Of a stretch of DNA of 64,000 bases, positions 5,715 through 29,989 are shown one piece after another. The stretch is taken from IMG/VR virus record IMGVR_UViG_3300003324_000465, positions 1 through 64,000 of that record; one strand, 5' to 3'. Positions within the stretch are counted from its first letter, which is position 1; every line of letters starts with the position of its first letter. Made by a program: the position numbers and the translations under genes. This DNA comes from a virus. The notes beneath the pieces were generated by a model. It had not been told where the DNA came from. It ran no database searches and saw only the letters and a program-made list of their open reading frames with translations.

Positions 5715-6373
5715 CAAATAATAAACCCAAAACGAATAGAAAAGCAGATAAAAATAAAGTATCTAAAATGGATGTCTGCCAAACCCCACCACATGCGCTA
5801 GAACCTTTATATCCTCATTTAGAGCGTAATGGATTTAGTATTATTTGGGAAAGTGCTGTAGGACCAGAGCAATTATTAGCTGATGCAATGAGAAATAAGG
5901 GTTATAATGTTTGGGGTACAGATTTACTTATGGGAGATAAATATAACCGTTTTACATATAGACCCCTAATAAATTACGATATAGAAATAACAAATGTACC
6001 ATTTAGTATTAAATATTACTGGCTTAATGTAGCATTTGACGATGGTAAACCATTTGCCTTTCTTGTGCCGTATGAAACAACATTCGCAAAAGAATTTCAA
6101 ATACTTTTTGAGGAATATAACAATAAACCCTGGCCTATTGAAGTGCTATCACCAGAGCGACGTATTAATTATAAAATGCCTGAAATGGGATGGGGTATTA
6201 CAGTATGGGATGAAGAAAAGCAGAAATATGTTAAACGTGGTGAGAGTGCCCAAATGCCTACTGCATGGCTTACATGGGGATTAAACGTATATAAAACGCG
6301 GGCGGATTATTTACGAACATATTATGTACCTATGCGTAAAGTAAAATATGCAAAGGATAATCAAGAGCTATGA
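5711..6373 (+). CDS. DNA adenine methyltransferase-fold protein, altered motif IV
   Basis: After a basic N-terminus, TPPHALEPLYPHL, IWESAVGPEQLLADAM and GYNVWGTDLLMGDKY follow the SAM-binding pattern of phage N6-adenine methyltransferase-like proteins. Where the family normally has a (D/N)PPF/Y catalytic tetrad, the sequence reads TNVPFS, so the first proline is Val. The C-terminal half is long and aromatic. It may be an active divergent methylase or a non-catalytic DNA binder. It is one of three methyltransferase-fold genes within 3.5 kb. Confidence 0.7.
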   Translation: MTNNKPKTNRKADKNKVSKMDVCQTPPHALEPLYPHLERNGFSIIWESAVGPEQLLADAMRNKGYNVWGTDLLMGDKYNRFTYRPLINYDIEITNVPFSIKYYWLNVAFDDGKPFAFLVPYETTFAKEFQILFEEYNNKPWPIEVLSPERRINYKMPEMGWGITVWDEEKQKYVKRGESAQMPTAWLTWGLNVYKTRADYLRTYYVPMRKVKYAKDNQEL

Positions 6374-6534
6374 GCAAATGGGAATATTTTATATGGGTTG
6401 AAGTAGATAAAGACAATATTGCCCATGAATTACACCTTTTAGGAGATTCAAAATGGGAATTAGTTTCATCGGTATATGATCCTAGATATGGTAAAATTGT
6501 ACATTATCTTAAACGTGAGGTTACTAATACTTAA
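6370..6534 (+). CDS. hypothetical protein (54 aa)
   Basis: ATGA overlap with the preceding gene. WEYFIWVEVD and KWELVSSVYDPRYGK resemble DUF4177-type small beta proteins ('W.Y..V ... GW.LV'), a tentative likeness only. Confidence 0.6.
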   Translation: MSKWEYFIWVEVDKDNIAHELHLLGDSKWELVSSVYDPRYGKIVHYLKREVTNT

Positions 6535-6536
6535 TT

Positions 6537-6785
6537 ATGTTACGTATAGTTACAAGTATAGGTGATTCTGTAGAATCAGCCGCTATGAATGTTTCTGAGT
6601 TATTCAATGCTATTGAAGGGGATAAACGCATTATTAGCATAGATACTGTCAATCCTCGTGTAGGATTGTGTGAAATTGTTATATGGTTTGAGAGTGTTGA
6701 CATTAGCAATGACTTACCTATGCAGCAACCGCCAAAACGACAATTTATTGGAATGCCTCGTGGTGCTGATCCAATGAATCCCTAG
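6537..6785 (+). CDS. hypothetical protein (82 aa)
   Basis: Starts two bases after the previous stop. Strand-helix pattern (MLRIVTSIGD...NVSELFNAIEG) and a Pro-rich C-terminus. The C-terminal codons lead straight into the long inverted-repeat element at 6785-6890, as the last gene of an operon would. Confidence 0.6.
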   Translation: MLRIVTSIGDSVESAAMNVSELFNAIEGDKRIISIDTVNPRVGLCEIVIWFESVDISNDLPMQQPPKRQFIGMPRGADPMNP

Positions 6786-11453: not shown

Positions 11454-11623
11454 ATGATCATGAATTATGTGTTATCTTAAACACAATGGATATTCCAGAG
11501 AATCGCAAAGATATTACAAACAAAGCAAATATACAATGGTTATTACGTAATATATCAATTCGCAATTTTGGGCATGCTAAATTAAATAATGTTATCGAAG
11601 AACTGAAAGGCCGGATGAAATGA
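11450..11623 (+). CDS. hypothetical protein (57 aa)
   Basis: ATGA overlaps on both sides place it firmly in the operon. A helical, mildly basic product with no recognised domain. Confidence 0.65.
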   Translation: MNDHELCVILNTMDIPENRKDITNKANIQWLLRNISIRNFGHAKLNNVIEELKGRMK

Positions 11624-12927
11624 GCTATAGCGCATATATTGCAAGGTTACAGAATATCCGTAAACATCCAAATGCTGATCGCCTTATGTTGGCAGATGTG
11701 ATGGGTTATCAAGTTGTTATTGGATTGGATCATTTTGAAGGTGAGAAAGGAGTTTTCTTTCCCGCTGATGGTCAACTTAGTGAAGCTTTTGCAAAAGCAA
11801 ATGATCTGATTGGTTACATTGATCCCGCTACTGGCGAGCGTAAAGGTGGATTTTTTGATGAAAAGCGTAAGGTAAAAGCGCAGAAGTTTCGCGGTGTTAA
11901 AAGTGAGGGTTTCTGGATGCCTTTGTCTGCATTGGATTCATTTATTGATTTTTTGCAGCTAAATACATTTTCTTTGCCTTCAGAATACGATTACAAAGAA
12001 GGTGAAGCCATTACTGATGTCATGGGCAATGAAATTTGCCGTAGATATGAGACAGAAGAAACACGTAAAGCAGCGGCACAAAATAAACAAGGCACACGAG
12101 CAGAAACACGTTTCTTTCCAAAGCATTTAGAAACAGGACAATTTCTTATCGAAGCATCTAATATACCAATAGGATCACGTATTATTCTATCTGAAAAGCT
12201 TCATGGTACTTCTCATAGAGAAGGTAAAACATGGATAGATGTTTCATTACCATGGTATAAACGATTTGTTAATTGGATAATGCGCCGCGATTATTATCCA
12301 AAGAAGCAATTAGCGCATTTGATCGGTACTCGCAACACAACATTATCAGAAACATCAAAAGACTATCATGGAGACAAGTCATTTCGTTACAAAGCGGCAC
12401 AATCTCATATGCCATTAAATGACGGTGAATTGCTTTACGGTGAGATTGTAGGGTATACTTCTAATGGACAGCTTATTATGCCCGCGCATAATAATGCCAA
12501 GACAAAAGATAAAGAAGTAACAAAACAGTATGGTACTGAAATGCGTTATACCTATGGTACGCAAAAAGGCGAATCAAGGCTCTATGCGTATCGTATAGCA
12601 GTAATGAACGAGCAGGGACTTGCACGCGAATTGTCATATGATGAATTTGTACAACGTGCGCAAGAATTAGGCGTTAGAACCGTACCTGTTATTGCTAACT
12701 TTACATATGATGGTAATATTGAATCTCTAACATCACAGATACCATTATTAGCAGATGGACATTCTGTACTAGATCCTAATCATATTATGGAAGGCGTTGT
12801 ACTGCGTATTGAAACACCTAATAATGGGCGTATCTATTTTCTAAAATACAAATCTTTCTTATTCCGCGTGCTGGAAGGTATTGCAAAAGAAGATGATACC
12901 TATGTAGATACAGAGGAAGCAAATTAA
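11620..12927 (+). CDS. RNA ligase, DRB0094 family
   Basis: The 435-residue protein has an N-terminal beta module (about 1-115) and a nucleotidyltransferase domain whose adenylation motif is SEKLHGTSHR (Lys193), the DRB0094/Deinococcus Rnl signature. Later motifs include LYGEIVGY and MEGVVLRIE with LKYKS, typical of ligase motifs IIIa, IV and V. Such ligases seal nicked RNA 3'-OH/5'-phosphate ends. Together with the tRNA cluster this suggests repair of tRNAs cut by host anticodon nucleases, which is inference. Confidence 0.9.
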   Translation: MSYSAYIARLQNIRKHPNADRLMLADVMGYQVVIGLDHFEGEKGVFFPADGQLSEAFAKANDLIGYIDPATGERKGGFFDEKRKVKAQKFRGVKSEGFWMPLSALDSFIDFLQLNTFSLPSEYDYKEGEAITDVMGNEICRRYETEETRKAAAQNKQGTRAETRFFPKHLETGQFLIEASNIPIGSRIILSEKLHGTSHREGKTWIDVSLPWYKRFVNWIMRRDYYPKKQLAHLIGTRNTTLSETSKDYHGDKSFRYKAAQSHMPLNDGELLYGEIVGYTSNGQLIMPAHNNAKTKDKEVTKQYGTEMRYTYGTQKGESRLYAYRIAVMNEQGLARELSYDEFVQRAQELGVRTVPVIANFTYDGNIESLTSQIPLLADGHSVLDPNHIMEGVVLRIETPNNGRIYFLKYKSFLFRVLEGIAKEDDTYVDTEEAN

Positions 12928-14537: not shown

Positions 14538-15182
14538 ATGCAACGTTTAAGGGATTTATACATTAAACTTAAATCTCAGAAAACACCCTTAACCCTTGCA
14601 GTTGTTGCACAAGCGTCCACAATTGCGATATGGATGACGCAAGAAGGACGTACAGGCTTCCCCGTACTGAATCTGGTTATAGCAAGTATAGCAGCATTTA
14701 GCATCGATCTTATTATCGTATCTACAGCTTTTTCAGAAAAGCGTAGTATTGCTGCCTGGATTCTTGCTTTAGCAACTTCTACAATTGCACTCGTGTTTTC
14801 AGCACTCATCGCTGTATACCTTTTTAGTCAAGACGGTACTATAACTCCATGGAATGTGTTACATGCCGCTTTTCCTATTCTCGTATACTTTTATAGCTGG
14901 TTTTTGTCTATCACCCTCCATGACAGAGAACAACACATGTTACACACCGAACAAAAGCTAAAAGAAGAAAAAGAGCTTAAAAGATTGCGCGATTTAGAAC
15001 GCATTCCGCATAATATACAAGAATATCGTATCAGTATTATTCGTAAGCTCATGAATAAGCAAATGAATGCTTCACAAATATATGATATTGTTGGAGGTAT
15101 GCGCGCTAAAGTATTGGAACAAATAAGAGAAATTCAGCAAGAATTGGGAATAAGTGATACAGATGATGTAGAACCAGCGTAG
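14538..15182 (+). CDS. multi-pass membrane protein with C-terminal helical tail
   Basis: Four hydrophobic segments (about residues 17-33, 41-60, 69-96 and 106-127) are followed by a charged coiled-coil-like stretch (EQKLKEEKELKRLRDLERI) and a helix-turn-helix-like end (NASQIYDIVGGMRAKV). The plan resembles DUF2637/Spd-type membrane proteins that accompany FtsK-like translocases on actinobacterial plasmids, but the likeness is by layout only. It stands directly before the repeat-rich leader of the FtsK operon. Confidence 0.6.
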   Translation: MQRLRDLYIKLKSQKTPLTLAVVAQASTIAIWMTQEGRTGFPVLNLVIASIAAFSIDLIIVSTAFSEKRSIAAWILALATSTIALVFSALIAVYLFSQDGTITPWNVLHAAFPILVYFYSWFLSITLHDREQHMLHTEQKLKEEKELKRLRDLERIPHNIQEYRISIIRKLMNKQMNASQIYDIVGGMRAKVLEQIREIQQELGISDTDDVEPA

Positions 15183-15356
15183 TATAATATAGTACCACGA
15201 TAGTACCATGTAGTACATAGCGCGTACTATTTAGTACACAGGATTGATAATAGAAATGATAATTATCAAATCATTATCAATGTATCACTTCTATTATCAA
15301 ATTATCAATAAAACAGTACATATATAACATTGATAATTTGATAAGAAAGGTCATAC
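15183..15356 (+). promoter_or_regulatory. iteron-like repeat cluster before the FtsK operon
   Basis: Two interleaved repeats fill this 174-bp gap. TAGTAC/GTACTA occurs about five times between 15190 and 15240. TTGATAAT/ATTATCAA occurs about eight times in both orientations between 15240 and 15345, including a compact palindrome AATGATAATTATCAAATCATT. The ribosome site GAAAGG follows. It looks like a repressor-operator array, a replication origin or a partition centromere. No partition gene is seen nearby. Confidence 0.65.
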
Positions 15357-16577
15357 ATGCGTAAAGAAATACTACGATTGTATGCTATGGGCATTATTGT
15401 AACTATACTTGCACTATCTATTCCTGAAGTACAATTTCATATGCAAGCCGTTATGTATTCATCAGAAGCAAAATCAGTTATAACAGCAGTACAAAACAGT
15501 AGTGATTATTACGTAGATAAATCTGCACAGGCATTACAAGCTCTTATTCAATATATAAAGCCCGCAGATACTATCTATATAAATGGACGATCAATCGGAG
15601 CTATAGATACTACTAACGACTTCTCATTAAATCATGGGCAAAGTATTTCAGTAGAGCAATGTGAATCTATACTTGCATCATATAAATCACCCGCTGAAGG
15701 TACATGTAGTGATGCTATAGAATATGCGCAAAAACACAATATAGATTTTGCTTATGTGCTTTACATGTTCATAAAAGAATCAAGTGCAGGTATGAATAAA
15801 AATTGGGCGGGTATTAAACCAGATGGAAATACAACACATAATACAGGTAATATCATATGTGCAGGATATATAACATGTTTTGGTAGATTCCGTGATTATA
15901 CTTCATGGGATGAGGGATGGAAAGATCATATTGATCTCTTAGTAAATTACCGCGATTCACAAGGTGATAAAACCTTAGAAGAAGCTATAAATCGATGGGC
16001 ACCGCCTATCGAAAATGATACAAATGCCTATTATCAAGAAGGTGTAAAACAAATAACAAGTTGGCGTGAAATAAATACCCGCGCCAATATACCTATTACA
16101 CCTTCTGATATAAAACCTATAACAAAAAACATGGTACTACTAAGTGATTTTTATGCTAAAGGTATAGTATGGTGCTTTCAAGACGGGAGATGTCCAAAAG
16201 ATAAATATGGTAATCCACTAGGAGAAGGTCAACATTTTGGCGATGATTTTAAACTAGAAGTTGGTGAACCTGTATATGCTCCGGTAAATGGTACCTTTAT
16301 TAGTTGCGGCGCATATTCTGATCCTGCTAGAATAGGTGAGTATATTATATATTTAACATATGATAACTATGAGTTTTATAGTGGTCATTTGGCAAACTCT
16401 ATAGTATTCTGTCAAAAGAACGTAGGCGATCCGGTCATAGCAGGTGAGATAGTAGGTTATGGTAATGCGAATGTGGCGGGACCGCATACACATATACAAT
16501 TACGTAAAGATGGACAATTATTAGATTATATGCAGTATTATAATGAAAGGATACAAAATGATAAAGGAAGAAAATAA
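15357..16577 (+). CDS. membrane-anchored peptidoglycan hydrolase: lysozyme-like plus M23
   Basis: An N-terminal membrane anchor (residues about 9-25) is followed by a lysozyme-like region (about 118-240). That region has a candidate catalytic Glu141 in FIKESSAG, then NTGNI and DYTSWDEGWKDHI, as in glucosaminidase/transglycosylase folds. An M23 LytM metallopeptidase follows (about 285-385) with HFGDD (His293, Asp297) and GPHTHIQL (His377, His379) for zinc. It could locally open the cell wall for a DNA-transfer or secretion channel, like VirB1/CwlT-type enzymes, or be a lysin. Its membrane anchor and position before FtsK favour the former (inference). Confidence 0.85.
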   Translation: MRKEILRLYAMGIIVTILALSIPEVQFHMQAVMYSSEAKSVITAVQNSSDYYVDKSAQALQALIQYIKPADTIYINGRSIGAIDTTNDFSLNHGQSISVEQCESILASYKSPAEGTCSDAIEYAQKHNIDFAYVLYMFIKESSAGMNKNWAGIKPDGNTTHNTGNIICAGYITCFGRFRDYTSWDEGWKDHIDLLVNYRDSQGDKTLEEAINRWAPPIENDTNAYYQEGVKQITSWREINTRANIPITPSDIKPITKNMVLLSDFYAKGIVWCFQDGRCPKDKYGNPLGEGQHFGDDFKLEVGEPVYAPVNGTFISCGAYSDPARIGEYIIYLTYDNYEFYSGHLANSIVFCQKNVGDPVIAGEIVGYGNANVAGPHTHIQLRKDGQLLDYMQYYNERIQNDKGRK

Positions 16578-17274
16578 AGGATGGCTTCATGCATTTTTCG
16601 ATACTATAGATATTGCTAGAAATATGTCAGAAGTAGAAAATGATGTAATCGAAGGTCCTTCTGGTGGAGGTGCTTTACTCTACGCGGTCGCTATGTTTGT
16701 TATGGCAGCAGTTACAGGAACATTGGCATATGTATTTGATCTTCAATCAACATGGGATGGTATGAATGCATTAACAATATTCATTATCCCGCAATTACCA
16801 GAATCACAAATACAAATATCGCAATGGCTTGGTTTAATCTTTACTATTGCTCCTACATTTACTCAAGCGTTCTCTGCTGGTTTAGCAAAAAGAAAGATAC
16901 CATTAGTGAAATGGATGGTTGTTGGTTTCACAATGTTTGATGTTGTAACTGATATTCCTAGAGCAATGTCATGGACATTAACATTACAGGCACAATTCAA
17001 TCAACTAGGTTTATTTGCATGGTTTGCACAGACAACATTTTTTGTTATGTGGCTGTTCCTGTCTACAATCGGATTTGAATTACTATTTGTTATCTTTTTC
17101 TGGGCGGGATTGTTATACACCGCTAAAGCTCTTGGGTATGAAAAGGCAACAAAACTATATAACACTATGCCTAAACTTAGCAATAACAATAAACATAGTA
17201 AACAGCCTAGCGTCAATACCACAAATATTCAAGATTTATTAAATAAAGCAAAAAATAACGAATCAGAAAGGTAA
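16558..17274 (+). CDS. multi-pass membrane protein (238 aa)
   Basis: ATG at 16558 is preferred (GAAAGGATACAAA upstream) over the ATG 15 nt earlier. Four or five hydrophobic segments lie between about residues 40 and 195. The C-terminal tail is polar and Asn/Lys-rich. Its last residues precede the FtsK-like gene by 3 nt. It is a candidate channel subunit of the transfer-like block. No named family recognised. Confidence 0.65.
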   Translation: MIKEENKGWLHAFFDTIDIARNMSEVENDVIEGPSGGGALLYAVAMFVMAAVTGTLAYVFDLQSTWDGMNALTIFIIPQLPESQIQISQWLGLIFTIAPTFTQAFSAGLAKRKIPLVKWMVVGFTMFDVVTDIPRAMSWTLTLQAQFNQLGLFAWFAQTTFFVMWLFLSTIGFELLFVIFFWAGLLYTAKALGYEKATKLYNTMPKLSNNNKHSKQPSVNTTNIQDLLNKAKNNESER

Positions 17275-17277
17275 ACT

Positions 17278-18873
17278 ATGGAGCCGCAAGATGTTGATAA
17301 AATAGACGTGATCTATATACTCGGTAGTATAATTATAATAGCATACAGTACACCTATGGCCGTAGTATTAGCTTTGCCTATAGGCTTAATTCAATATAAA
17401 TTGCGGCGTTCACAATGGTTTCAAAATAAAACAGCCGAATTACATGGTCTTGTGGCAAAGCCTGTAGGTTTCTTACTTCCGCCACCTAAAAGCTCAGAAA
17501 CTAATGCATATACGGGTAAAACACAGAACTTACAACGCGAAGAAAGAAAAGCACTGCCTTTTTATATGCGTGTTAATTTGCCACAAGACCAGACTATTTA
17601 TGTGGACGATGTACAATCTAAGCCTGTAATAGCGCATAATGCAATACAAAACAATACAATACATATGCTATTAAAGAAAGCGCCTAGCTACTTTTCCTAT
17701 GAGAAATTACCTAATCCGCCTACGACTACTTCTATACCAATAGGATATGATTTATCGAATAAGTCTATTATGTGGATGGATTTAGCAAAAGATTTCGTAC
17801 ATGGTCTTGTAGCAGGTATGACAGGTACAGGTAAAGATGCGCTACTACGTTTGTGGTACGTGTATTTAACATCTTATAATCCTCCATCGGCCATCCAATT
17901 TATTATTCTTGATGGTAAGAATGAATGGATGTTACCCGCGCTGGCACAATCACCCTATATGTTCATTCCGCCTGCTGGAGGTGTTGATATAGTTAAAGAT
18001 GAGAAAGGTAGAAGAAAACTAGGCTCAACTCAGCGTATGGCTGAAAGTCTTGATAAAGTTTTTGATGAGATAGAAAGACGCCAAGAGTTATTTAATAAAG
18101 CGGGAGCTACGAACCTTGCATCCTATGTATCAAAAACTGGTAATACCCTACCACGGCTTGTTATTATTGCTACTGATGTAGGGGAAGATTTTAATGGTGA
18201 TCTGGAAACACTTGTCAGAATACTTACAATGAAGGCTCGGTCGTTTGGTATAAATCTTATTATTTCTATGCAAACTTCCAGCAAGCAAGACACTGGATGG
18301 CGTAGTAACCTATCACTTACAATGTCAGGTTATCAGGCGTTACATAGTGCAGATCAGCCGATAATGGGTATAAATGCAACAAATATACTTTATAGACCGT
18401 CTCAGCTTCCAAATCCAGAAGAAGACGACAGAGCTAAGGGTTTATTTGCAGTGCGTAGAGGATCATATCAAACTATTGTCAAAACTGCTCATTTAAATGA
18501 AGAGATATTTGAGCAATATATCCATAATGCCATTAAAGAACCTTCGCAGGATGAGTTATTAGTACAGCGTGCAATGGAAAAATACAATACGAGAATAAAA
18601 CATCAAAATACCATAACACCACTTGATCTTATAAATCAAGATTACCAAAGACCTGTACGAACACAAAAACAAGATAAACCAGAAAAAACGGAATATGAAT
18701 GGTTACTTACAAAGGAACAGCGCATGAACGTTATACAATGGGTTAAACAAGGCTGGAACAAAACAAAAATAATGCGCGACGGTCTTAGATATACATCTGG
18801 TGAATATTATACACGCTATAGCAGTGATGTAGATAAACTTATATATATAGTTAATAAAGTTACAAAACTATGA
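17278..18873 (+). CDS. FtsK/SpoIIIE-type DNA translocase
   Basis: A membrane segment at residues about 11-40 is followed by a linker and a FtsK-like ATPase: GMTGTGKD Walker A at 180-187, IQFIILDGKNEW (the DPK-like strand), a Walker B region LVIIATDVGED at 294-304, and LIISMQTSSKQ (a sensor like 'ATQRPS'). The Walker B lacks the usual acidic pair directly after the hydrophobic strand. The C-terminus (EQRMNVIQWVKQGWNKTKI) looks like a DNA-binding HTH rather than the gamma domain. It should pump dsDNA across or along a membrane. 531 residues suits TraB/conjugative translocases. Confidence 0.85.
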   Translation: MEPQDVDKIDVIYILGSIIIIAYSTPMAVVLALPIGLIQYKLRRSQWFQNKTAELHGLVAKPVGFLLPPPKSSETNAYTGKTQNLQREERKALPFYMRVNLPQDQTIYVDDVQSKPVIAHNAIQNNTIHMLLKKAPSYFSYEKLPNPPTTTSIPIGYDLSNKSIMWMDLAKDFVHGLVAGMTGTGKDALLRLWYVYLTSYNPPSAIQFIILDGKNEWMLPALAQSPYMFIPPAGGVDIVKDEKGRRKLGSTQRMAESLDKVFDEIERRQELFNKAGATNLASYVSKTGNTLPRLVIIATDVGEDFNGDLETLVRILTMKARSFGINLIISMQTSSKQDTGWRSNLSLTMSGYQALHSADQPIMGINATNILYRPSQLPNPEEDDRAKGLFAVRRGSYQTIVKTAHLNEEIFEQYIHNAIKEPSQDELLVQRAMEKYNTRIKHQNTITPLDLINQDYQRPVRTQKQDKPEKTEYEWLLTKEQRMNVIQWVKQGWNKTKIMRDGLRYTSGEYYTRYSSDVDKLIYIVNKVTKL

Positions 18874-19076
18874 TAAAGAAAACAATATCGATACTTATTC
18901 TATTATATTTATTCTATAAATTAGATGTTGTGCCTATTGTTGTTGTTGTACAGCATTTGTTAGTGTACTGGAATATATTTATGTATACTATACTCACGCT
19001 TAAAGATAATCATCCGGTTATATACATGTTATTACCTTTCATACTTATATGGTTATTATTACAAAAGAATGCCTAG
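18870..19076 (+). CDS. small membrane protein (68 aa)
   Basis: ATGA overlap with the FtsK-like gene. Two hydrophobic stretches (about 4-33 and 47-64). Probably a membrane partner of the translocase; unnamed. Confidence 0.6.
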   Translation: MIKKTISILILLYLFYKLDVVPIVVVVQHLLVYWNIFMYTILTLKDNHPVIYMLLPFILIWLLLQKNA

Positions 19077-19515
19077 CTATAAAACACATGATAAGATAGC
19101 GTATATTTCTGTAGTACCTATTAGTTTACTTACAGCATATACGTTATCTTTATCCATACCAGATACATTTTTATTTGCGGGGGGATTTATTCTCACTAAT
19201 TATTATCTATCTCCTGATCTTGACACGTATAGTATAATGGTAAGACGATGGGGTTTTCTCTATCCTTTATGGATACCGTATAGACATGCTATTAAACATC
19301 GGTCATTATTTTCACACAGCGGCCCTCTGAGCGCTTTGATACGATTAACCTATATAACTATACCCTTGAGTCTTATAGGGCTTCTGGTAAATATTTCATT
19401 ATTTTTTATGGCTATAGAAAGCCATGCATTTTTATTATTTATACTATCTGCAATATTTTCGGATACATTGCATACCTTGACAGACAAGATATGGAGTAAG
19501 ATACATGCGAGATAA
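19069..19515 (+). CDS. DUF2227-like metal-binding membrane protein
   Basis: MPSYKTHDKIAYISVVPISL, then TNYYLSPDLDTYS and YRHAIKHRSLFSHSGPL. The repeated His and Asp (H7, DLD, RH...KHRS..SH) match the DUF2227 / YdjM-type 'hydrolase-like' membrane proteins. Three or four membrane segments. In that wider family these residues bind metal; the substrate is unknown. It is embedded in the transfer-like block. Confidence 0.75.
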   Translation: MPSYKTHDKIAYISVVPISLLTAYTLSLSIPDTFLFAGGFILTNYYLSPDLDTYSIMVRRWGFLYPLWIPYRHAIKHRSLFSHSGPLSALIRLTYITIPLSLIGLLVNISLFFMAIESHAFLLFILSAIFSDTLHTLTDKIWSKIHAR

Positions 19516-20862: not shown

Positions 20863-21011
20863 TGCTTGCATCACTATTACGAAGATTATTAGACTTCTTA
20901 GGTGAAAACGATTATGTGTATTTCACTATTGATAATCGCATATTTAAACCTACGCAACATATAATACATTTGAAGAACGGCGTTATTATCACATTAGAAG
21001 AAATACAATAA
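20862..21011 (+). CDS. small hypothetical protein (49 aa), duplicated family
   Basis: GAAAGGAAAAATTA precedes the ATG. LLRRLLDFLGENDYVYFTID...IFKP is clearly related to the 50-residue gene at 21322 (LISYLMEHEYIYFTFR...VFKP). The two copies flank the P-loop gene. Function unknown. Confidence 0.6.
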   Translation: MLASLLRRLLDFLGENDYVYFTIDNRIFKPTQHIIHLKNGVIITLEEIQ

Positions 21012-21019
21012 AGGAATAT

Positions 21020-21325
21020 ATGATGATTACAGTTATAGTAGGTCCAAGAGGATCAGGTAAGACAACATTAGCGCTTGGTCTAATGACTTCCCTCTATGGT
21101 ATTCGTAGTAACATTGCTACGTTATTAGATGAATATGAGGATGGAAAAGCATATTATATTCAATCGCCTATAGATATTACACGCGGGTGGTCAAGAGGTA
21201 TACGCCCTGTTAATATTAAAAAAGAGCTAGAATTTAAACAGCCCGTAATAATAACCACCCGCGAATTATCATCAGAATTAGAATCATTAGCTACGTATAT
21301 TATACGTACAGAAAGGAAGCCATGA
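21020..21325 (+). CDS. small P-loop NTPase (101 aa)
   Basis: ITVIVGPRGSGKTTLALGL near the N-terminus is a perfect Walker A. The protein is too short for a full helicase or terminase, and a plausible Walker B is VIITTRELSS without a clear DE. It may be a small kinase-like or remnant ATPase. It lies between two copies of a 50-residue gene family, with an ATGA overlap to the second. Confidence 0.7.
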   Translation: MMITVIVGPRGSGKTTLALGLMTSLYGIRSNIATLLDEYEDGKAYYIQSPIDITRGWSRGIRPVNIKKELEFKQPVIITTRELSSELESLATYIIRTERKP

Positions 21326-21474
21326 ACGCAGTTATATTTCGTAATCTGATTAGTTATCTCATGGAACATGAGTATATTTATTTTACATTTCGCGATATAG
21401 TATTCAAACCTACTATGCAAGTAACCGAACTTACTGGTGCTATTGCTATAGAGTTAGTACAGTGTGGTGATTAA
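21322..21474 (+). CDS. small hypothetical protein (50 aa), second copy
   Basis: ATGA overlap with the P-loop gene. Related to the 49-residue product of 20862-21011 through 'L..(Y/F)L.E..Y+YFT....(I/V)FKPT'. It is the last gene of the rightward run and is followed by an intercistronic box and a terminator. Confidence 0.6.
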   Translation: MNAVIFRNLISYLMEHEYIYFTFRDIVFKPTMQVTELTGAIAIELVQCGD

Positions 21475-21498
21475 ATAATCGCCCCGCATTATATAAAG

Positions 21499-21532
21499 CA
21501 TCCATTACTTTTACTTGTAGTGGATGGTTTTA
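21499..21532 (+). terminator. terminator at the end of the rightward genes
   Basis: CATCCATTAC (21499-21508) pairs with GTAGTGGATG (21517-21526) with one wobble, then GTTTTACTT. The stop codon of the convergent HNH gene lies two bases further on. Confidence 0.7.
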
Positions 21533-21533
21533 C

Positions 21534-22229
21534 TTATCTATAATCTATTATATTTATACCTTTTATGTTATTGCATCTCTCACATAGCGGTTGAATGTTA
21601 TCAATAGTATTGTTACCACCTTTTGATAGCGGTATAACATGATCTGCTGTTAATTTGCATGTAGTACAGCCACAAGATAAACATGTATTATTATACTTAG
21701 TGTAAAGTTCCTGAAGTTCTTTACCTGTAAATGACCCTCTTTTCTCATGTATTCTTCTACGATGTTTAAATGCTTTTCTAGTTAATCTGCATTTTTCTGT
21801 ATTATAACACTTTATACGGCGTAATCTTTCACTACCGCTGTATTTACGCGGCCTGCCTTTCTTATTTATTTTAGGTTTCTTGCGATTACATACTGTACAT
21901 ATGCCTTTTTCACTTATAACTACACGCGCTTTTAGCTTTTTACAAGTAGAGCAATATGCTGTATATGATCCTTTTGGTATATACCCATATTCTATGCTTT
22001 TTAACCTACGATCTTCTGGCGAAAGTATTTGTTTTGGTTTAGAAACACGCTTGTAGTTACCCTTACCTACACCTTTAATTTTATTATTGTCTCGTTTCCA
22101 TTGCTTTGTGTATGCTCTTTTACATATATAACAATATGAATCTAAACCATTTTTCTTCTTCGTGTTAGCTGGAAATTCTTTGGAGTATTTCCATTCTCTG
22201 CACCGCGAACATCTGTGTTTATTATTCAT
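21534..22229 (-). CDS. HNH endonuclease with zinc fingers
   Basis: The C-terminal HNH core is CLSCGCTTCKLTADHVIPLS then NTIDNIQPLCERCNNIKG: zinc-binding CxxC pairs, DH and N, the full HNH signature. The N-terminal half has three more CxxC pairs (CSRCREWK, CYICK, CSTCK...CTVC) and basic linkers, so it is a zinc-rich DNA binder. Probably a free-standing homing endonuclease. It has its own sigma70 promoter and is oriented against the rightward operon. Confidence 0.9.
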   Translation of the reverse strand: MNNKHRCSRCREWKYSKEFPANTKKKNGLDSYCYICKRAYTKQWKRDNNKIKGVGKGNYKRVSKPKQILSPEDRRLKSIEYGYIPKGSYTAYCSTCKKLKARVVISEKGICTVCNRKKPKINKKGRPRKYSGSERLRRIKCYNTEKCRLTRKAFKHRRRIHEKRGSFTGKELQELYTKYNNTCLSCGCTTCKLTADHVIPLSKGGNNTIDNIQPLCERCNNIKGINIIDYR

Positions 22230-22950: not shown

Positions 22951-23334
22951 AGCTACAGAGCATGATATACGATACCGCATATATACTAGTATATAAAAAG
23001 ACTTTACACTTAGGGGGATATATACATGGAGTCAAAACGTATAAACGGGTGATTGTAGTCACATGTGCATTTTTGGAGAGTGTAAAGTGTATAGTGCTTT
23101 GTAAGCATGATATGATGAGGTATTTCATAGGTGCGAATGGTGCCGCAGGGCACAACAAAGGCATAAAACCTTATTTAACCAAAACCTATAATTCAGACAA
23201 CAACGCTCACAGAGCATAAAACACAAAGAATTATGCTAGTGCATTCTAAGAGGATATTCTACATTGGTTATAGAGTATTTTTCACTAATAGATTCTGCAT
23301 GTATACATTGCGGGGCAATTATTCCGAGAACAAA
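22951..23334. other. gene-free stretch with an inverted repeat
   Basis: ACTTTACACT (23001-23010) and AGTGTAAAGT (23079-23088) are a perfect inverted pair 68 bp apart, and GTGCC-GCAG-GGCAC forms a small hairpin near 23140. A 108-codon plus-strand frame overlaps it but has no ribosome site and an unlikely composition. One intercistronic box (ATTGCGGGGCAATTATT) lies at about 23307-23323. Otherwise nothing is recognised. Confidence 0.45.
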
Positions 23335-23361
23335 GAAAAAACCCATCATTTATAGATAGGT
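23335..23361 (-). terminator. intrinsic terminator of the leftward genes
   Basis: On the minus strand ACCTATC (23355-23361) pairs with GATGGGT (23341-23347) around TATAAAT, followed by TTTTTTC. It marks the left end of the minus-strand gene run. Confidence 0.8.
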
Positions 23362-23387
23362 CTTTCTCGTATATATTCCTTTTGTTA

Positions 23388-23522
23388 TTAATAAAGCTTG
23401 ATTGATTGAATAACAATACCTTCCTTTAACATCACAAGTAACACTGTTTCTAGCACATTACATGTGATATACATTGTTTCCAGTCTACCAGATACGGCAT
23501 TAAGGTATTCTATTTCTACCAT
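23388..23522 (-). CDS. small hypothetical protein (44 aa)
   Basis: AGGAGCATACTATA precedes the ATG. The product begins MVEIEYLNAVSGRLETM and has a hydrophobic middle (VLETVLLVML). It is the last gene before the terminator at 23335. Function unknown. Confidence 0.6.
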   Translation of the reverse strand: MVEIEYLNAVSGRLETMYITCNVLETVLLVMLKEGIVIQSIKLY

Positions 23523-23565
23523 TATAGTATGCTCCTATGCGTATAAATTGCGGGCCATTATTACA

Positions 23566-23733
23566 TTAGCTCAAAAGATCATCGGCTAATGCCCATGCGG
23601 TATCACAAGCTGCATTATCACTGCCGTTTATTGTAAACTCACTGCCGCCTATTCGCAATGTCAATTCATTTGCGCCGGTCTGGTACAGTTCAAAGTAAAA
23701 GCCCTTTATCTTGCGTGTACCTATATAAATCAT
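23566..23733 (-). CDS. small hypothetical protein (55 aa)
   Basis: Begins MIYIGTRKIKGFYFELYQTG and ends DTAWALADDLLS, a beta hairpin plus helix. AGAGAGG lies upstream. It is separated from its neighbours by intercistronic boxes on both sides, like most genes in this stretch. Confidence 0.65.
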   Translation of the reverse strand: MIYIGTRKIKGFYFELYQTGANELTLRIGGSEFTINGSDNAACDTAWALADDLLS

Positions 23734-23771
23734 TGTTATAACCTCTCTGTATATAATGCGCGGCTCTGTTA

Positions 23772-24002
23772 TTATAGATAGTTGTTTCTTGCCATTGTCA
23801 GTATAGTAATAAGCTGATCTATCTGCTGTACCGTAGTAATATCGATACGTTCCACAGACTCACCCGTAGGGGCATTATCATTCGGTACAGTCTGAATGAT
23901 GAACACACGATTCTTATCAATTACTACGTGCGTGCTATGTGGTTCTTCATTCAGATCATCGGTAAGATGAACACGAATAGCGGCTAATTGATTGCTTTTC
24001 AT
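23772..24002 (-). CDS. hypothetical protein (76 aa)
   Basis: AGAAAGGTTTAATACC precedes the ATG. A soluble beta-helix product (MKSNQLAAIRVHL...ITTVQQIDQLITIL). No recognised domain. Confidence 0.65.
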   Translation of the reverse strand: MKSNQLAAIRVHLTDDLNEEPHSTHVVIDKNRVFIIQTVPNDNAPTGESVERIDITTVQQIDQLITILTMARNNYL

Positions 24003-24052
24003 GGTATTAAACCTTTCTGTGATATATTGCGCGGCTATTATTCACGAGGATA

Positions 24053-24277
24053 TTATGCTGTATAATCCTCATACCATTGCTTATTCTCATACCATTGCAC
24101 GCTTGCACAGTTATTGCTATCACGCAGGAATTGACAAAACGTATCTGCGCTATCCTTTGCACTAAAATACTGGAAATAGTCCTGATGATCGGTAATGGAT
24201 GTCCAGAGCACACGGTACATATAACCGCAGTCACGTAGTGAGCTATCAATAGCTGGAGTAAGGTTGTCGATCAGCAT
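24053..24277 (-). CDS. hypothetical protein (74 aa)
   Basis: AGAAAGGATGCTGCC precedes the ATG. Contains VLWTSITDHQDYFQYFSAKD and an aromatic C-terminus (WYENKQWYEDYTA). This frame is chosen over an overlapping one at 24007-24249, which would run through the box between genes. Confidence 0.62.
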   Translation of the reverse strand: MLIDNLTPAIDSSLRDCGYMYRVLWTSITDHQDYFQYFSAKDSADTFCQFLRDSNNCASVQWYENKQWYEDYTA

Positions 24278-24355
24278 GGCAGCATCCTTTCTTATATGTC
24301 AAGTATGACAGGATTACCGTTATACATACCCACATTATAAAACGCGGGGCGATTA

Positions 24356-24523
24356 TTAGCGCGGCTTGTGATAATCGATATGAATATTATAGAAAATATC
24401 AAATAACCGGGCCTCTTCTTCAACAGCCGCATCATAATCGGTATAATTACCGTTACGCAAGTTGCGTTGCGCAATAACCCATGCATTACGTGCGTCGTTC
24501 AGTTGATAGATTGTAGGGATCAT
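24356..24523 (-). CDS. small hypothetical protein (55 aa)
   Basis: AGAAAGGTGAATATA precedes the ATG. The product (MIPTIYQLNDARNAWVIAQR...YDAAVEEEARLFDIFYNI) is helical and charged, more protein-like than the alternative frame here. It is followed by an intercistronic box. Confidence 0.65.
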   Translation of the reverse strand: MIPTIYQLNDARNAWVIAQRNLRNGNYTDYDAAVEEEARLFDIFYNIHIDYHKPR

Positions 24524-24580
24524 TATATTCACCTTTCTGTATATACTGCGCGGCTATTATACACGCGCCCATCGCAGTTA

Positions 24581-24826
24581 TTAACTAATAAGGTCATTAA
24601 GCACGTTCAGAATGCTGGACAATTGCGTTTCTAGTCTATCAGTATCATACATGCTGATTGAAAGCATCCTGCCGTTGAACTGAAAAGCAAGCTGATTAAA
24701 ATGTGTGAACATAGTCATAGTCACGGTAATATCAGTGATGGTCATAGAGTGATACTGAAGAACACCAGAGCTATAAGCCTGATAGATCAGATTAGCGATT
24801 GTGTCTATAAATGTCTTCTGAAACAT
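24581..24826 (-). CDS. hypothetical protein (81 aa)
   Basis: AAAGGTAGACGAGC precedes the ATG. A helix-strand-helix product (FIDTIANLIYQAY...LETQLSSILNVLNDLIS). Unrecognised. Confidence 0.62.
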   Translation of the reverse strand: MFQKTFIDTIANLIYQAYSSGVLQYHSMTITDITVTMTMFTHFNQLAFQFNGRMLSISMYDTDRLETQLSSILNVLNDLIS

Positions 24827-24842
24827 GCTCGTCTACCTTTCT

Positions 24843-24983
24843 TTATTCAGTAACCTTGACGATCTGCCGACAATTGAATTTAATAATTGCGGTCATCTGT
24901 GCTGCAAGGCGATCAATATCCTTGATCTTCACTGTCTGGTGTGTATCGTCTGACTTCAGGAAAGTGATTGTATACGTCTTCAT
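24843..24983 (-). CDS. small hypothetical protein (46 aa)
   Basis: First gene behind the promoter at 25021-25049, with GAAAGGTACAGGCA upstream of the ATG. Begins MKTYTITFLKSDDTHQTVKI and ends FNCRQIVKVTE, a small all-beta protein plan ('T+TF..SD....++...+...V') common among phage accessory genes. Confidence 0.65.
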   Translation of the reverse strand: MKTYTITFLKSDDTHQTVKIKDIDRLAAQMTAIIKFNCRQIVKVTE

Positions 24984-25020
24984 TGCCTGTACCTTTCGCT
25001 ATTGTTTTCCTCACAACCCT

Positions 25021-25072
25021 ATGATACCACAGGACTATATGGAATGCAATATCGAAACCGTGTAGATTCTAA
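25021..25072 (-). promoter_or_regulatory. promoter with shared operator-like block
   Basis: Minus strand: TTGCAT (25044-25049), 17 bp, TATCAT (25021-25026). Over and upstream of the -35 box lies AGAATCTACACGGTTTCGAT (to about 25071), nearly the same as at the promoters near 28.09, 30.23, 32.28 and 34.39 kb. It drives the short genes at 23.4-25.0 kb. Confidence 0.8.
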
Positions 25073-25099
25073 GGAATATTTTAAGGAATATTTTTGAGG

Positions 25100-25212
25100 A
25101 TAAAATTATAGGAGACATTCTAAGACGTTGAAAATATCAAAACGACCTGAGATACTGGTTTGATACTATCGTGTCTTAGAATGTCTCCTAGGGGTATTGT
25201 AGGGCATTCTGT
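25100..25212 (-). repeat. operon-end inverted-repeat element, copy 3
   Basis: On the minus strand it starts CACAGAATGCCCTACAATACC just after the stop of the 25215 gene. The arms pair perfectly over 16 bp: GGAGACATTCTAAGAC (25111-25126) with GTCTTAGAATGTCTCC (25173-25188). The spacer includes GATACTGGTTTGATACTAT, shared with copies 1 and 4. Confidence 0.85.
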
Positions 25213-25214
25213 GA

Positions 25215-25520
25215 TTATTGATCAGGGAAGAGTGTAGTATATCTGGTAAGCATGTCAAGCATACGCTTATAGGTAGTACCTGAAACCTTTGTAAGCAAGG
25301 TAGCGCAATAGCATTGAATACCATGGGGGGTCATTACAAAGGTATCCTCATCGTTGTTATACACAATAACGCCATTGTACAAAAATGCGGCAAGAGTCTT
25401 ATAGTCGATATGTTCTGAGAGTGTGGTAAAATTGGTTATTCCGTTTGTAAGTATATGCTCAATCGCATTCATTTGAGCATAGCTGAAGTCACTGTGTACG
25501 AATTTAAGTGCTTTAGCCAT
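25215..25520 (-). CDS. hypothetical protein (101 aa), paralogous pair
   Basis: Clearly related to the 98-residue product at 33413-33709: both have 'Q..AIE.IL', a 'T(L)..+...' helix, 'L.AF+.N.+V.+.N(D/E)', 'T..GIQ.YCAT(L/I)LTK..G.T+.R+'. AGAAAGGATACCTGTT precedes the ATG. Function unknown, but retention of two copies in one phage suggests paired roles. Confidence 0.7.
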   Translation of the reverse strand: MAKALKFVHSDFSYAQMNAIEHILTNGITNFTTLSEHIDYKTLAAFLYNGVIVYNNDEDTFVMTPHGIQCYCATLLTKVSGTTYKRMLDMLTRYTTLFPDQ

Positions 25521-25559
25521 AACAGGTATCCTTTCTTACGAGTAATAATTGGCGGGGCA

Positions 25560-25730
25560 TTATTTATGAATCACAAACATTGTTAAACCATGTTCATCAA
25601 ACATAGGCGTCATAGTGATAATATCAGTAAATGAAACCGTCGAAGATAGTTTAAACAGCGCTATAGCAAGCATCTCCTCATATCCTCTAGTACCGTTGCA
25701 AGGTACAAAGATACGCTTAACATTATCCAT
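25560..25730 (-). CDS. hypothetical protein (56 aa)
   Basis: AAGAAAGGATATATGTAT precedes the ATG. MDNVKRIFVPCNGTRGYEEM has a strand and loop, then a helix and FTDIITMTPMFDEHG. It lies between two intercistronic boxes. Unrecognised. Confidence 0.62.
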   Translation of the reverse strand: MDNVKRIFVPCNGTRGYEEMLAIALFKLSSTVSFTDIITMTPMFDEHGLTMFVIHK

Positions 25731-25765
25731 ATACATATATCCTTTCTTATATAGTGCGCGCCGGA

Positions 25766-25963
25766 TTATACACGGCGACCTTTAATTATATATCTTCCAG
25801 TACCGTCACGCTTTACATATGGTATATCCCGTAATGCTCGTGAGATTTGAGAAGGCTTGTATGTTTCGAGCGCAACATCCATGGCGGTCATTACATCCAT
25901 AACGTTAAACCATCTGTTTCCCGGAATGGATTCCAATGCTTTCTTTACTGCTTGCTTGATCAT
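25766..25963 (-). CDS. small winged-helix-like protein (65 aa)
   Basis: The ATG at 25963 is chosen because GAAAGGGG lies about 8 nt upstream; an ATG 18 nt earlier overlaps that site. The product runs ALESIPGNRWFNVMDVMTAM, then QISRALRDIPYVKRDGTGRY: helix, helix, 'SRALR' recognition-type helix and a beta wing, as in small phage DNA-binding proteins. Confidence 0.6.
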   Translation of the reverse strand: MIKQAVKKALESIPGNRWFNVMDVMTAMDVALETYKPSQISRALRDIPYVKRDGTGRYIIKGRRV

Positions 25964-26005
25964 TGTGTTTTCCCCTTTCATTCAAAATATCAGAAATAAT
26001 CCGTA

Positions 26006-26323
26006 CTAAAGCACCACTTTCGGGTATTCAAGATTATTATCTGTAACATACTGATTGATACCGTCAATCCATCCACGCAACCAATCATGATGATATTGTG
26101 TCGATAAACGAGCATACTCTTTAACGTCTGGTTTATCATTCTTACCTGAATTAAAAACATATGGCCCGCCAGGGATATAACCACCAATTACAGATGGATG
26201 CTTAAAATTGCTTCCTCTTGTTAACCATATATATCCATCATTATATCCATCATCATATCCCTGTTCATTGATCACAGATGGATTAGGATCAAGGATATGA
26301 GGAAAACTTTCTTTTGCATTCAT
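26006..26323 (-). CDS. hypothetical protein (105 aa)
   Basis: ATG at 26323 preceded by GGGAG at 8 nt. Notable phrases are GYDDGYNDGYIWLTRGSNFK and YHHDWLRGWIDGI, the 'G..DG...' pattern seen in phage ribosome modulation factor-like small proteins ('GR.AG..G...NPY....HH.W..GW..G'). The likeness to that RMF-type pattern is suggestive only. Confidence 0.6.
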   Translation of the reverse strand: MNAKESFPHILDPNPSVINEQGYDDGYNDGYIWLTRGSNFKHPSVIGGYIPGGPYVFNSGKNDKPDVKEYARLSTQYHHDWLRGWIDGINQYVTDNNLEYPKVVL

Positions 26324-26328
26324 GCTAT

Positions 26329-26562
26329 TTACTCCCATGTTACATCATCGGCTATACTACCATCATATTTTGGTAATGCTATACCATGGTGTGCTAATGT
26401 TTGTTCTAATTGTTTAATCCTTTCACGATATATCTGATGGTCTTGCCACAGAAGATCGGCTACTTGCTTATAATATTTCTCCTTCCAGGATTTAGATAAT
26501 ATCCAAAAATCCATACCACCAAAACGATTACGCAAGAATGCGGCTATTGTTTCTTTATCCAT
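26329..26562 (-). CDS. hypothetical protein (77 aa)
   Basis: ATG at 26562 preferred, AAGGA 10 nt upstream. A helical product: RNRFGGMDFWILSKSWKEKY...QIYRERIKQLEQTLAHHGI. Unrecognised. Confidence 0.6.
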   Translation of the reverse strand: MDKETIAAFLRNRFGGMDFWILSKSWKEKYYKQVADLLWQDHQIYRERIKQLEQTLAHHGIALPKYDGSIADDVTWE

Positions 26563-26595
26563 GATACATTGATCCTTATATATAATGCCGGGCAA

Positions 26596-27126
26596 TTATT
26601 CATAGATAATGTGGCTATCCAATACGCGATACAGTTCATCTCTGCCGGGCTTCATGTGGTTAAGCTCTAAAGAAAGCTTGACAGCACTTACAAGCTCATC
26701 GGCTCGGCCTACTGTTTCCGTAATATCTTCACTGGTTGTCACTACTGCTATTACTGCATAGAGATTGTTATCATGTAGTACGTAGTCAAGCCGCTTGACA
26801 AAAGCTTCCATATTACTATCGTCACTAGGGATAATGACAATTTCATCTCCTCCCCATCTGATAACTGTATCGGTATGCCGAAAATTGTCTACAAAAGAGC
26901 AAATGAGCTTGTCTACACCATCCATTGTAAAAGCATGATTCGCCGCGTGCATATTTGCAATATCGATTTGAACAAGCTTATGATCTGAGCAAATCGGCTT
27001 GCTCGCAACAGCATTACGATTCAAGATACCGCCAAAAGCTTGATCACATTCAAGATACCCTATCCGTTTCTGCTGCTCCATAACGAGTGCAATCAGTTCT
27101 TCGCGGCTCATATCTTGAATGTTCAT
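26596..27126 (-). CDS. GGDEF-domain nucleotide cyclase-like protein
   Basis: After a short coiled-coil-like N-terminus, the 176-residue protein follows the GGDEF fold: DQAFGGILNRNA (for D.LTGL.NR) at about 28-39, VQIDIANMHAANHAFTMDG at 52-70 (Asp55 metal ligand), RWGGDEIVIIPSDD at 90-103 (GGDEI in place of GGDEF), and GRADELVSAVK near the end. GGDEF enzymes make c-di-GMP or related cyclic dinucleotides. There is no sensor domain, so it would be constitutive or protein-regulated. It stands alone behind its own promoter. Confidence 0.82.
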   Translation of the reverse strand: MNIQDMSREELIALVMEQQKRIGYLECDQAFGGILNRNAVASKPICSDHKLVQIDIANMHAANHAFTMDGVDKLICSFVDNFRHTDTVIRWGGDEIVIIPSDDSNMEAFVKRLDYVLHDNNLYAVIAVVTTSEDITETVGRADELVSAVKLSLELNHMKPGRDELYRVLDSHIIYE

Positions 27127-27165
27127 TGTAGTATCCTGTATTGTCTAAGCGGCTTCGTTGAATGG

Positions 27166-27195
27166 AGTATAGCATGGGAGCATAGGCTAGTACAA
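27166..27195 (-). promoter_or_regulatory. sigma70-type promoter of the GGDEF gene
   Basis: Minus strand: TTGTAC (27190-27195), 18 bp, TATACT (27166-27171), about 40 bp before the ATG at 27126. Confidence 0.7.
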
Positions 27196-27253
27196 TGGTA
27201 TCATGGTCCTATATGAAATTAGTACCTAATCACTATGAAAATAATTGCACCAA

Positions 27254-27502
27254 TTATGCGTAGCTCTGAACCGTATAGCCCTTATCTTTCAAAGCATCTG
27301 CGAGATCATTAATACTGTGAAGACGGCTAAAATTATGTACGTATACCTCAGCATGCGTAGGAAACATACACATCAGATTAACCGCATCCTCTAGCGCTTG
27401 TGCTGTAACATTCCATGACCGTTCATCATTCACATAGCATGTGATCTGAGCATATCCACTACTGGTACTGCGGATAATGAGCTGAAATTTACCAGTAATC
27501 AT
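27254..27502 (-). CDS. hypothetical protein (82 aa)
   Basis: ATG at 27502 chosen for AGAAAGGATATTCCC upstream. A beta-rich start (MITGKFQLIIRSTSSGYAQI), then VTAQALEDAVNLMCMF and ADALKDKGYTVQ. Unrecognised. Confidence 0.62.
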   Translation of the reverse strand: MITGKFQLIIRSTSSGYAQITCYVNDERSWNVTAQALEDAVNLMCMFPTHAEVYVHNFSRLHSINDLADALKDKGYTVQSYA

Positions 27503-27533
27503 GGGAATATCCTTTCTGATAGCCATATCATTA

Positions 27534-27749
27534 TTACAAATAGCCGATGAATGTAACAGTGCTGTATGTGCCATTTGTATACTCTACGCATTGAAACATC
27601 TTTTTACCTTTTGGCCGGACAAGAGTAAGATCACGAGTAACATTGTTTTCACGCATAACTCTTGCCATATTGATCAAGCCATCTGATTCTAACTGATCTG
27701 GTGTTTTTGCGCTAATGATTTGATATTCGATATTGTCTATGGTAATCAT
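27534..27749 (-). CDS. hypothetical protein (71 aa)
   Basis: AGGAGACACATAAC precedes the ATG. MITIDNIEYQIISAKTPDQL opens a small alpha/beta protein, then DLTLVRPKGKKMFQCVEY. Unrecognised. Confidence 0.65.
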   Translation of the reverse strand: MITIDNIEYQIISAKTPDQLESDGLINMARVMRENNVTRDLTLVRPKGKKMFQCVEYTNGTYSTVTFIGYL

Positions 27750-27783
27750 GTTATGTGTCTCCTGATATTACTGCGGCGCATTA

Positions 27784-28029
27784 TTAGTAATCGTTAGCGT
27801 ATATGTCAATATCACGCAAAATGCTATCGGATACGCCATCCTCCATAATTGTAGGATCAATTACAAATGTAATCTCATCTCGCATATATCCCCAAGTCAT
27901 AACCTGCTTAATATAACTAGCGGTGTCTTGCCAAACGTTCTTTAGCATTGTTGTATCGACAACATTACCGTCGTGTCGAGCTTTGGCGTAGTAGCTACCG
28001 TTTACTTGGAAGAATTTAACCTCTAGCAT
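27784..28029 (-). CDS. hypothetical protein (81 aa)
   Basis: First gene behind the promoter at 28067-28095. MLEVKFFQVNGSYYAKARHD is beta-rich and followed by VWQDTASYIKQVMTWGY. Unrecognised. Confidence 0.65.
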   Translation of the reverse strand: MLEVKFFQVNGSYYAKARHDGNVVDTTMLKNVWQDTASYIKQVMTWGYMRDEITFVIDPTIMEDGVSDSILRDIDIYANDY

Positions 28030-28066
28030 TGTCTTCAGCCTTTCAGATTGTTTGCCTCACACCAGA

Positions 28067-28117
28067 ATGATACCATGATCTATGGCCAGAGTCAATACTG
28101 AAACCGTGTAGTTTTTA
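28067..28117 (-). promoter_or_regulatory. promoter with shared operator-like block
   Basis: Minus strand: TTGACT (28090-28095), 17 bp ending CATGG, TATCAT (28067-28072). CTACACGGTTTCAGTATTGA overlaps and precedes the -35 box, a copy of the block shared by five promoters. Confidence 0.85.
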
Positions 28118-28151
28118 AGGAATATTTCGGGGATTATTTTTTTTTAGGATT

Positions 28152-28260
28152 GTACAGGAGCCATTTTAAGAGGCGATAATTTTCAAAATGACGTGAGATA
28201 CCAGTTTGATCCTATCATCGCTCTCAGAGCTTCCCAGGGGCCTTACAGGGCATCCTAAGA
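28152..28260 (-). repeat. operon-end inverted-repeat element, copy 4
   Basis: Minus-strand start AGGATGCCCTGTAAGGCCCC. One arm, GGAAGCTCTGAGAGCG (in 28213-28234), is identical to copy 2; the other arm, CGCCTCTTAAAATGGCTCC (about 28157-28175), pairs imperfectly. The spacer has GGATCAAACTGGTATCTCAC, shared with copies 1 and 3. It lies between the helicase terminator and the next promoter. Confidence 0.75.
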
Positions 28261-28274
28261 AATAGCTGTCATGT

Positions 28275-28305
28275 AAAAAGAGTCTAGGGTTTAGTCCTAG
28301 ACTCT
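28275..28305 (-). terminator. intrinsic terminator of the helicase gene
   Basis: AGAGTCTAGG pairs with CCTAGACTCT around a 7-nt loop and is followed by TTTTTAC on the minus strand, about 20 nt after the stop codon. Confidence 0.92.
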
Positions 28306-28326
28306 CTGGTGCTTTATACTGGTACG

Positions 28327-29946: not shown

Positions 29947-29989
29947 CGTTGTGTATCCTTCTGTATTACAAAGAAGACGTAAGTAGATC

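Follow-up and report, generated by a model that had tools for sequence, protein, structure and literature searches.

A Walker-altered FtsK-type motor and its membrane partner, shared by a phage operon and Chloroflexia mobile DNA, as a candidate DNA-transfer unit

We analyzed bases 1–64,000 (the window) of the 106,876-base virus record IMGVR_UViG_3300003324_000465 in IMG/VR, and focus here on an operon at 14538–19515 that encodes an FtsK-type motor among membrane proteins. A sequence-only reading of this stretch had proposed a transfer-like membrane module, and all of the genes that it listed are present, intact, and rightward. The features, in window coordinates, are as follows:

14538–15182, + strand: MP1, a multi-pass membrane protein of 214 aa with three to four transmembrane (TM) segments and a cytoplasmic coiled C-terminus; no known relatives
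15183–15356, no strand: repeat-rich leader of 174 bp, with TTGATAAT/ATTATCAA six times (15244–15337) and TAGTAC five times (15190–15237)
15357–16577, + strand: membrane-anchored wall hydrolase with an N-terminal TM segment, a lysozyme-type domain, and an M23 endopeptidase (Pfam, motifs)
16543–17274, + strand: MP2, the putative motor partner, 243 aa with about four TM segments (BLASTP match to 5956–6588 of locus L007, 1e-8)
17278–18873, + strand: FtsK-type motor whose Walker residues are exchanged (GKD; LVIIATD), with a modeled C-terminal three-helix domain (PF01580, 5e-10; Foldseek)
18870–19076, + strand: tiny protein with two TM segments, overlapping the motor gene by 4 bp (open reading frame and TM calls)
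19069–19515, + strand: DUF2227 membrane protein (PF09988, 2.6e-28)

Because the genes overlap or nearly touch, the five from the hydrolase to DUF2227 form one translationally coupled operon, with intergenic gaps of −35 bp (hydrolase/MP2), +3 bp (MP2/FtsK), −4 bp (FtsK/tiny), and −8 bp (tiny/DUF2227). The tight spacing claimed for the whole row therefore holds for these five genes, but MP1 stands apart, separated from them by the leader. Searches of phages and plasmids with tblastn gave no match to MP1, and its candidacy as a DUF2637/SpdB protein was rejected for want of a match to that family. The leader, earlier called iteron-like, is richer in repeats than chance would give: the six copies of TTGATAAT/ATTATCAA lie within 94 bp, no other 8-mer clusters as densely in the 106.9-kb genome, and 30 Markov-2 shuffles reached at most four copies per 200 bp. 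The array may serve as an operator, as a site for loading the motor, or in some other role. The TAGTAC copies make up a second repeat set. The hydrolase, too, was correctly recognized, with a TM segment, a lysozyme/glucosaminidase domain (PF01832, 3e-7), and a Peptidase_M23 domain (3e-9), and its catalytic glutamate and M23 zinc-ligand motifs are intact.

The motor belongs to the FtsK/SpoIIIE/HerA superfamily, with a Pfam match to PF01580 (FtsK_SpoIIIE) above the gathering score and one clear N-terminal TM segment in the sequence. The earlier description of an FtsK/TraB-type ATPase with a membrane segment thus survives in its FtsK domain and anchor, but not in TraB, which we rejected because the curated model NF041214 scored 18.1 bits against a cut-off of 800. 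Assignment as a type VII secretion system (T7SS) ATPase was also rejected: EssC/EccC gave the best partial NCBIfam matches (3e-12), but at 45 vs. 778 bits and with a single ATPase domain in the motor. Overall, the sequence falls between EssC/EccC, FtsK, and TraB and within none of their curated NCBIfam families. In a Foldseek search with the motor model, DNA motors ranked first (FtsK on double-stranded DNA [dsDNA], 6t8g, 4e-12; TcpA, 6o1w, 1e-10), and T7SS ATPases were also among the structural neighbors. The model, with a predicted local distance difference test (pLDDT) score of 57, suggests a RecA-like motor with one or two membrane helices before it and, at the C-terminus, a three-helix domain that is better defined; no Pfam helix-turn-helix match was found in the motor. 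The AlphaFold model of MP2 was too weak for interpretation.

The nucleotide-binding motifs of the motor are unusual. Canonical Walker A GK[S/T] and Walker B D[E], which are typical rather than strictly defining, are absent from the phage motor, which instead carries GKD and ATD. In alignment with solved FtsK, the Walker A serine is replaced by aspartate and the Walker B aspartate by serine or threonine. The two positions also changed together across the aligned set, as GKD was paired with serine or threonine in 30 of 30 rows, GKN with asparagine in 5 of 5, and GKG with alanine or threonine, and canonical GK[S/T] rows carried the Walker B aspartate in 25 of 26. The exchange, or asparagine at both positions, was seen in the phage motor (17278–18873) and in about 30 Chloroflexia loci.

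In our tree, the altered motors form one clade (100/98) with the canonical motors outside it, and the phage motor is sister to that of Oscillochloris (99/96). One odd row lies inside the altered clade on a very long branch (L084, GKT with alanine). Because the altered motors form one clade, the swap has one main origin and few later changes, and the Fisher p-value of 1e-16 for the residue association in the aligned set consequently overstates its strength. Because Walker B retains its second acidic residue, it is likely that the two Mg-coordinating side chains exchanged places with function retained. Our search of the open-access literature returned nothing relevant on a published Walker swap or on FtsK-type conjugation in Chloroflexota, which does not prove that no such report exists.

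To place the motor among its relatives, we ran a profile search for short FtsK-type proteins in 158 genomes of class Chloroflexia, which yielded about three dozen that are distinct from chromosomal FtsK. The closest to the phage motor, at 40% identity, lies in an Oscillochloris metagenome-assembled genome (locus L007). A multi-pass protein of 150–380 aa is encoded directly upstream of the motor on the same strand in 26 of 32 scorable relatives (21 by strict TM count and 5 added by homology), compared with 5 of 100 other large open reading frames in the same loci (5%). For MP2 itself, the Oscillochloris partner gave the only significant BLASTP match, and a pairwise comparison with a Herpetosiphon partner was not significant; the wider partner family is therefore defined by position, TM count, and a motif in common. 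These data support MP2 and the FtsK-type motor as a pair conserved in the mobile DNA of Chloroflexia, on plasmids and in an integrated element. The gene order to be sought in plasmids and phage-plasmids was recovered in part: of all the genes at 14538–19515, only this pair recurs elsewhere.

The integrated element, at 2690–16467 of L007, is 13,733 bp long and lies in a tRNA-Phe gene, bounded by 45-bp direct repeats of the tRNA-Phe 3′ end. It encodes a tyrosine integrase, an Xis-like protein (assigned from size and position), a helix-turn-helix regulator, MP2, the motor, a HicA/HicB-like pair and a restriction-modification gene (both assigned by eye), and a RepB-type primase whose match falls just below the cut-off (23.7 vs. 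24.3 bits). No type IV secretion system (T4SS), VirB4, relaxase, or partition gene was seen in the element. With att repeats, integrase, Xis, replication protein, and an FtsK-type Tra protein, it has the att-int-xis-tra-rep plan of actinomycete integrative and conjugative elements (AICEs) (PMC3218068). By its gene content, L007 is an AICE-like integrated element in Chloroflexota, a phylum other than that of the actinomycetes. A survey that covered Actinobacteria only found AICEs only in Actinomycetales (PMC3218068).

Herpetosiphon carries the pair on pHAU01, pHAU02, and further contigs, with a single copy on the H. aurantiacus chromosome. It is commonly preceded by genes for an actin-like and a small conserved protein, and an actin-like ParM/ALP gene adjoins the pair in at least 10 relatives. 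Repeat arrays resembling parC sites precede the actin-like genes in L005 (16877–17024), L010 (6942–7028), and L061 (12932–13055). Two Herpetosiphon loci, L010 and L072, also encode a TraG/TrwB-type ATPase and a Replic_Relax protein upstream of the pair. The link between the pair and mobile DNA is therefore firm, yet it is compatible with either transfer or segregation.

The record itself is that of a tailed phage, with a terminase at 82220–84805 and a portal gene at 84802–86304. Because 25 bases are common to both contig ends, it is probably a complete circularly permuted genome, though so short an overlap alone is no proof. The phage encodes its own DNA polymerase, DnaB-type helicase, primase, RecA, ribonucleotide reductase, and ThyX. 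A Pfam scan of its open reading frames of at least 95 aa found no integrase, relaxase, partition, or plasmid replication genes, and since the first three were not found, the suggestion of a conjugating phage-plasmid is not indicated. A lysis cassette with an Amidase_2 endolysin followed by three small TM proteins lies directly after the portal gene (86307–88285); it looks complete and is separate from the operon, which we accordingly rejected as the holin/endolysin cassette. No sister phages were found in viral contigs with the FtsK, hydrolase, RNA ligase, DNA polymerase, and ribonucleotide reductase queries. Four IMG/VR contigs (L024–L027) carry a terminase ~55% identical to that of the phage; these short fragments carry no match and do not reach the region of the operon.

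Several other features of the genome were recorded. GC skew and gene direction flip at about 21000–22000 of the window, so that the genome has a rightward and a leftward arm. Copies of a 25-nt repeat (TATATTGCGCGGCTATTATTCA-like) are found in the leftward arm at 23303–34155 and 49638, as does a 34-nt repeat at 25040, 28086, 30228, and 32277; both are perhaps phage promoters. A Ro60-like RNA-binding protein with a von Willebrand factor A (vWA) domain and a separate vWA protein are encoded at L003 11032–12588 and window 2140–3240, and the same phage has five tRNA genes and an RNA ligase (11620–12927).

The lysozyme domain of the hydrolase is 45–50% identical (E ~1e-40) to a protein found in most Chloroflexales-type genomes sampled, one in each. 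These chromosomal proteins also carry a membrane segment, and in L113 the match spans both lysozyme and M23 domains with identical architecture. The best plasmid match to the domain, which counts slightly in favor of transfer, is a lysozyme plus NlpC/P60 protein near PrgI on a Ca. Chlorohelix plasmid, though with an E of only 6e-4. Because of the resemblance to the chromosomal protein, and because the nearest motor is in an Oscillochloris genome, the host is probably one of the filamentous Chloroflexales (filamentous green non-sulfur bacteria). The membrane-anchored lysozyme-domain protein, at L109 6188–7486 with equivalents in L110–L115 (one per Chloroflexales-type genome), is itself a candidate for septal wall remodeling or septal-channel drilling. 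In Chloroflexales filaments, septal channels were seen in two of the three species imaged, and homologs of cyanobacterial junction genes are absent (PMC7332563).

Because the motor and its partner family otherwise occur on plasmids and integrated elements, this virus may pump DNA between neighboring cells. Our tentative reading, which we place somewhat short of an even chance, is that the core of the operon is a two-gene DNA pump of a Chloroflexia mobile-element family, consisting of MP2 and a presumably hexameric FtsK-type motor, that moves phage dsDNA from cell to cell. MP2 would anchor the motor ring to the cytoplasmic membrane of a filamentous Chloroflexales cell, probably at its septum, and the hydrolase, as a relative of a chromosomal protein of the probable hosts, would make a local opening in the septal wall. 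With its C-terminal helical domain as a guide, the motor would then push phage dsDNA across the membrane and into the neighboring cell, much as TraB acts with Spd proteins in Streptomyces mycelium. The original idea of transfer is thus kept insofar as the motor is related to dsDNA translocases and tied to mobile DNA, but it is weakened in that the motor is not TraB and the phage yielded no relaxase or integrase. It is doubtful, although conceivable, that with a pump taken over from a conjugative element and a septal hydrolase of host type, the phage passes its genome from cell to cell along the filament with neither lysis nor adsorption. Since we infer whatever goes beyond gene anatomy, pairing, and linkage (host order, location at the septum, substrate, direction, recognition of DNA, and transfer between cells), both the pump and the segregation alternative below are rated with caution.

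Several results weigh against a DNA pump. The structure models are of low confidence (pLDDT 57–58), and with both catalytic residues altered, the motor could be a weak or inactive ATPase. No further phage with the MP2 and FtsK pair was found, MP1, the hydrolase, the tiny protein, and DUF2227 were not found with the pair elsewhere, and L007, the nearest motor relative, lacks a repeat array comparable to the phage leader. Moreover, the actin-like genes beside the pair fit segregation equally well. Chromosomal FtsK clears and positions DNA at the division septum, and the pair could likewise position DNA or clear the septum, saving plasmid or phage DNA from trapping at division. The sequence-only reading had named lysis or segregation homologs as grounds for abandoning transfer, and segregation remains live because many plasmid copies adjoin actin-like partition genes. 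ParM/ALP genes stand just upstream in some 10 or more relatives, with the parC-like arrays of L005, L010, and L061 upstream of the ParM gene. We nonetheless consider segregation rather unlikely and favor transfer over it, because the integrated tRNA-Phe element that holds the nearest relative has no partition gene; none was identified in the phage either, and a wall hydrolase would be unnecessary.

Lysis, the other ground, is disfavored. An accessory lysis module would account for a lysozyme/M23 enzyme and small membrane proteins in one operon, but it is very improbable given the complete-looking cassette adjoining the portal gene and an FtsK motor in the operon. Less improbable, though still unlikely, is membrane takeover or superinfection exclusion, in which the operon remodels the envelope or bars other DNA and the motor serves as an exporter or anchor. 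This would suit a membrane-rich operon in the rightward accessory region and give a place to the otherwise unexplained tiny and DUF2227 proteins, but it leaves the conserved pair on plasmids and integrated elements unexplained. PADLOC matches were only to generic FtsK domains, on which ground a defense system was rejected. Protein secretion by an EccC/EssC-like single-ring ATPase is the least probable of these. The partial EssC/EccC matches and the T7SS structural neighbors speak for it, but the scores lie far under the model cut-offs for a protein with one ATPase domain, further T7SS components were not recognized in the operon, Foldseek puts DNA motors first, and multi-domain EccC-like proteins fall apart from the clade in the tree.

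If the DNA pump is real, filamentous Chloroflexota, in which conjugation has hardly been studied, gain a candidate transfer system, and a phage gains a single-motor DNA-transfer cassette; we know of no other phage with one. The AICE-like Chloroflexota element and the Walker-swapped FtsK-type clade stand on sequence alone, independent of transfer. The clade also makes it testable whether a Mg-binding pair exchanged between motifs still powers translocation by a P-loop motor.

Among known systems, the FtsK/SpoIIIE-like genes of Bacillus phages (phrog_1358) similarly place an FtsK-domain protein in a large phage, but the motor of phage Troll is canonical (GKS/DE) and outside the swapped clade, and its adjoining genes are annotated only as hypothetical proteins. 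TcpA/FtsK-like coupling proteins with CwlT/VirB1-type hydrolases resemble our locus in having an FtsK-like motor near an M23 or lysozyme-type hydrolase, as in Paenibacillus pAP1; unlike in TcpA-type Gram-positive conjugation, VirB4, relaxase, and other T4SS genes were not recognized in the phage. TdtA of ICETh1, the Thermus transjugation system, is likewise a single FtsK/HerA-superfamily ATPase on a tRNA-gene-integrated element and exports donor DNA without a classical T4SS (PMC5365140). However, TdtA shares its operon with NurA and a restriction enzyme, and no DNA-binding domain was detected in it (PMC5365140), whereas the phage locus encodes a TM-anchored motor together with MP2 and a wall hydrolase. 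In Streptomyces, TraB and Spd proteins spread dsDNA inside filaments (PMC12857230). The phage differs from these systems in its non-TraB motor by NCBIfam, its swapped Walker residues, and its lack of a DUF2637/Spd match, and from actinomycete AICEs in that the pair occurs in Chloroflexota and a phage. Where TraB has a C-terminal winged helix-turn-helix and 8-bp recognition repeats (TRS), the phage has a modeled three-helix domain without a Pfam helix-turn-helix match and an 8-bp leader array that this domain may or may not bind. Still, Streptomyces TraB plasmids and AICEs share with our loci a membrane-anchored FtsK-type motor, adjacent multi-pass proteins, a C-terminal helical domain, a mobile-element context, filamentous hosts, and, in L007, the att/int/xis/tra/rep anatomy.
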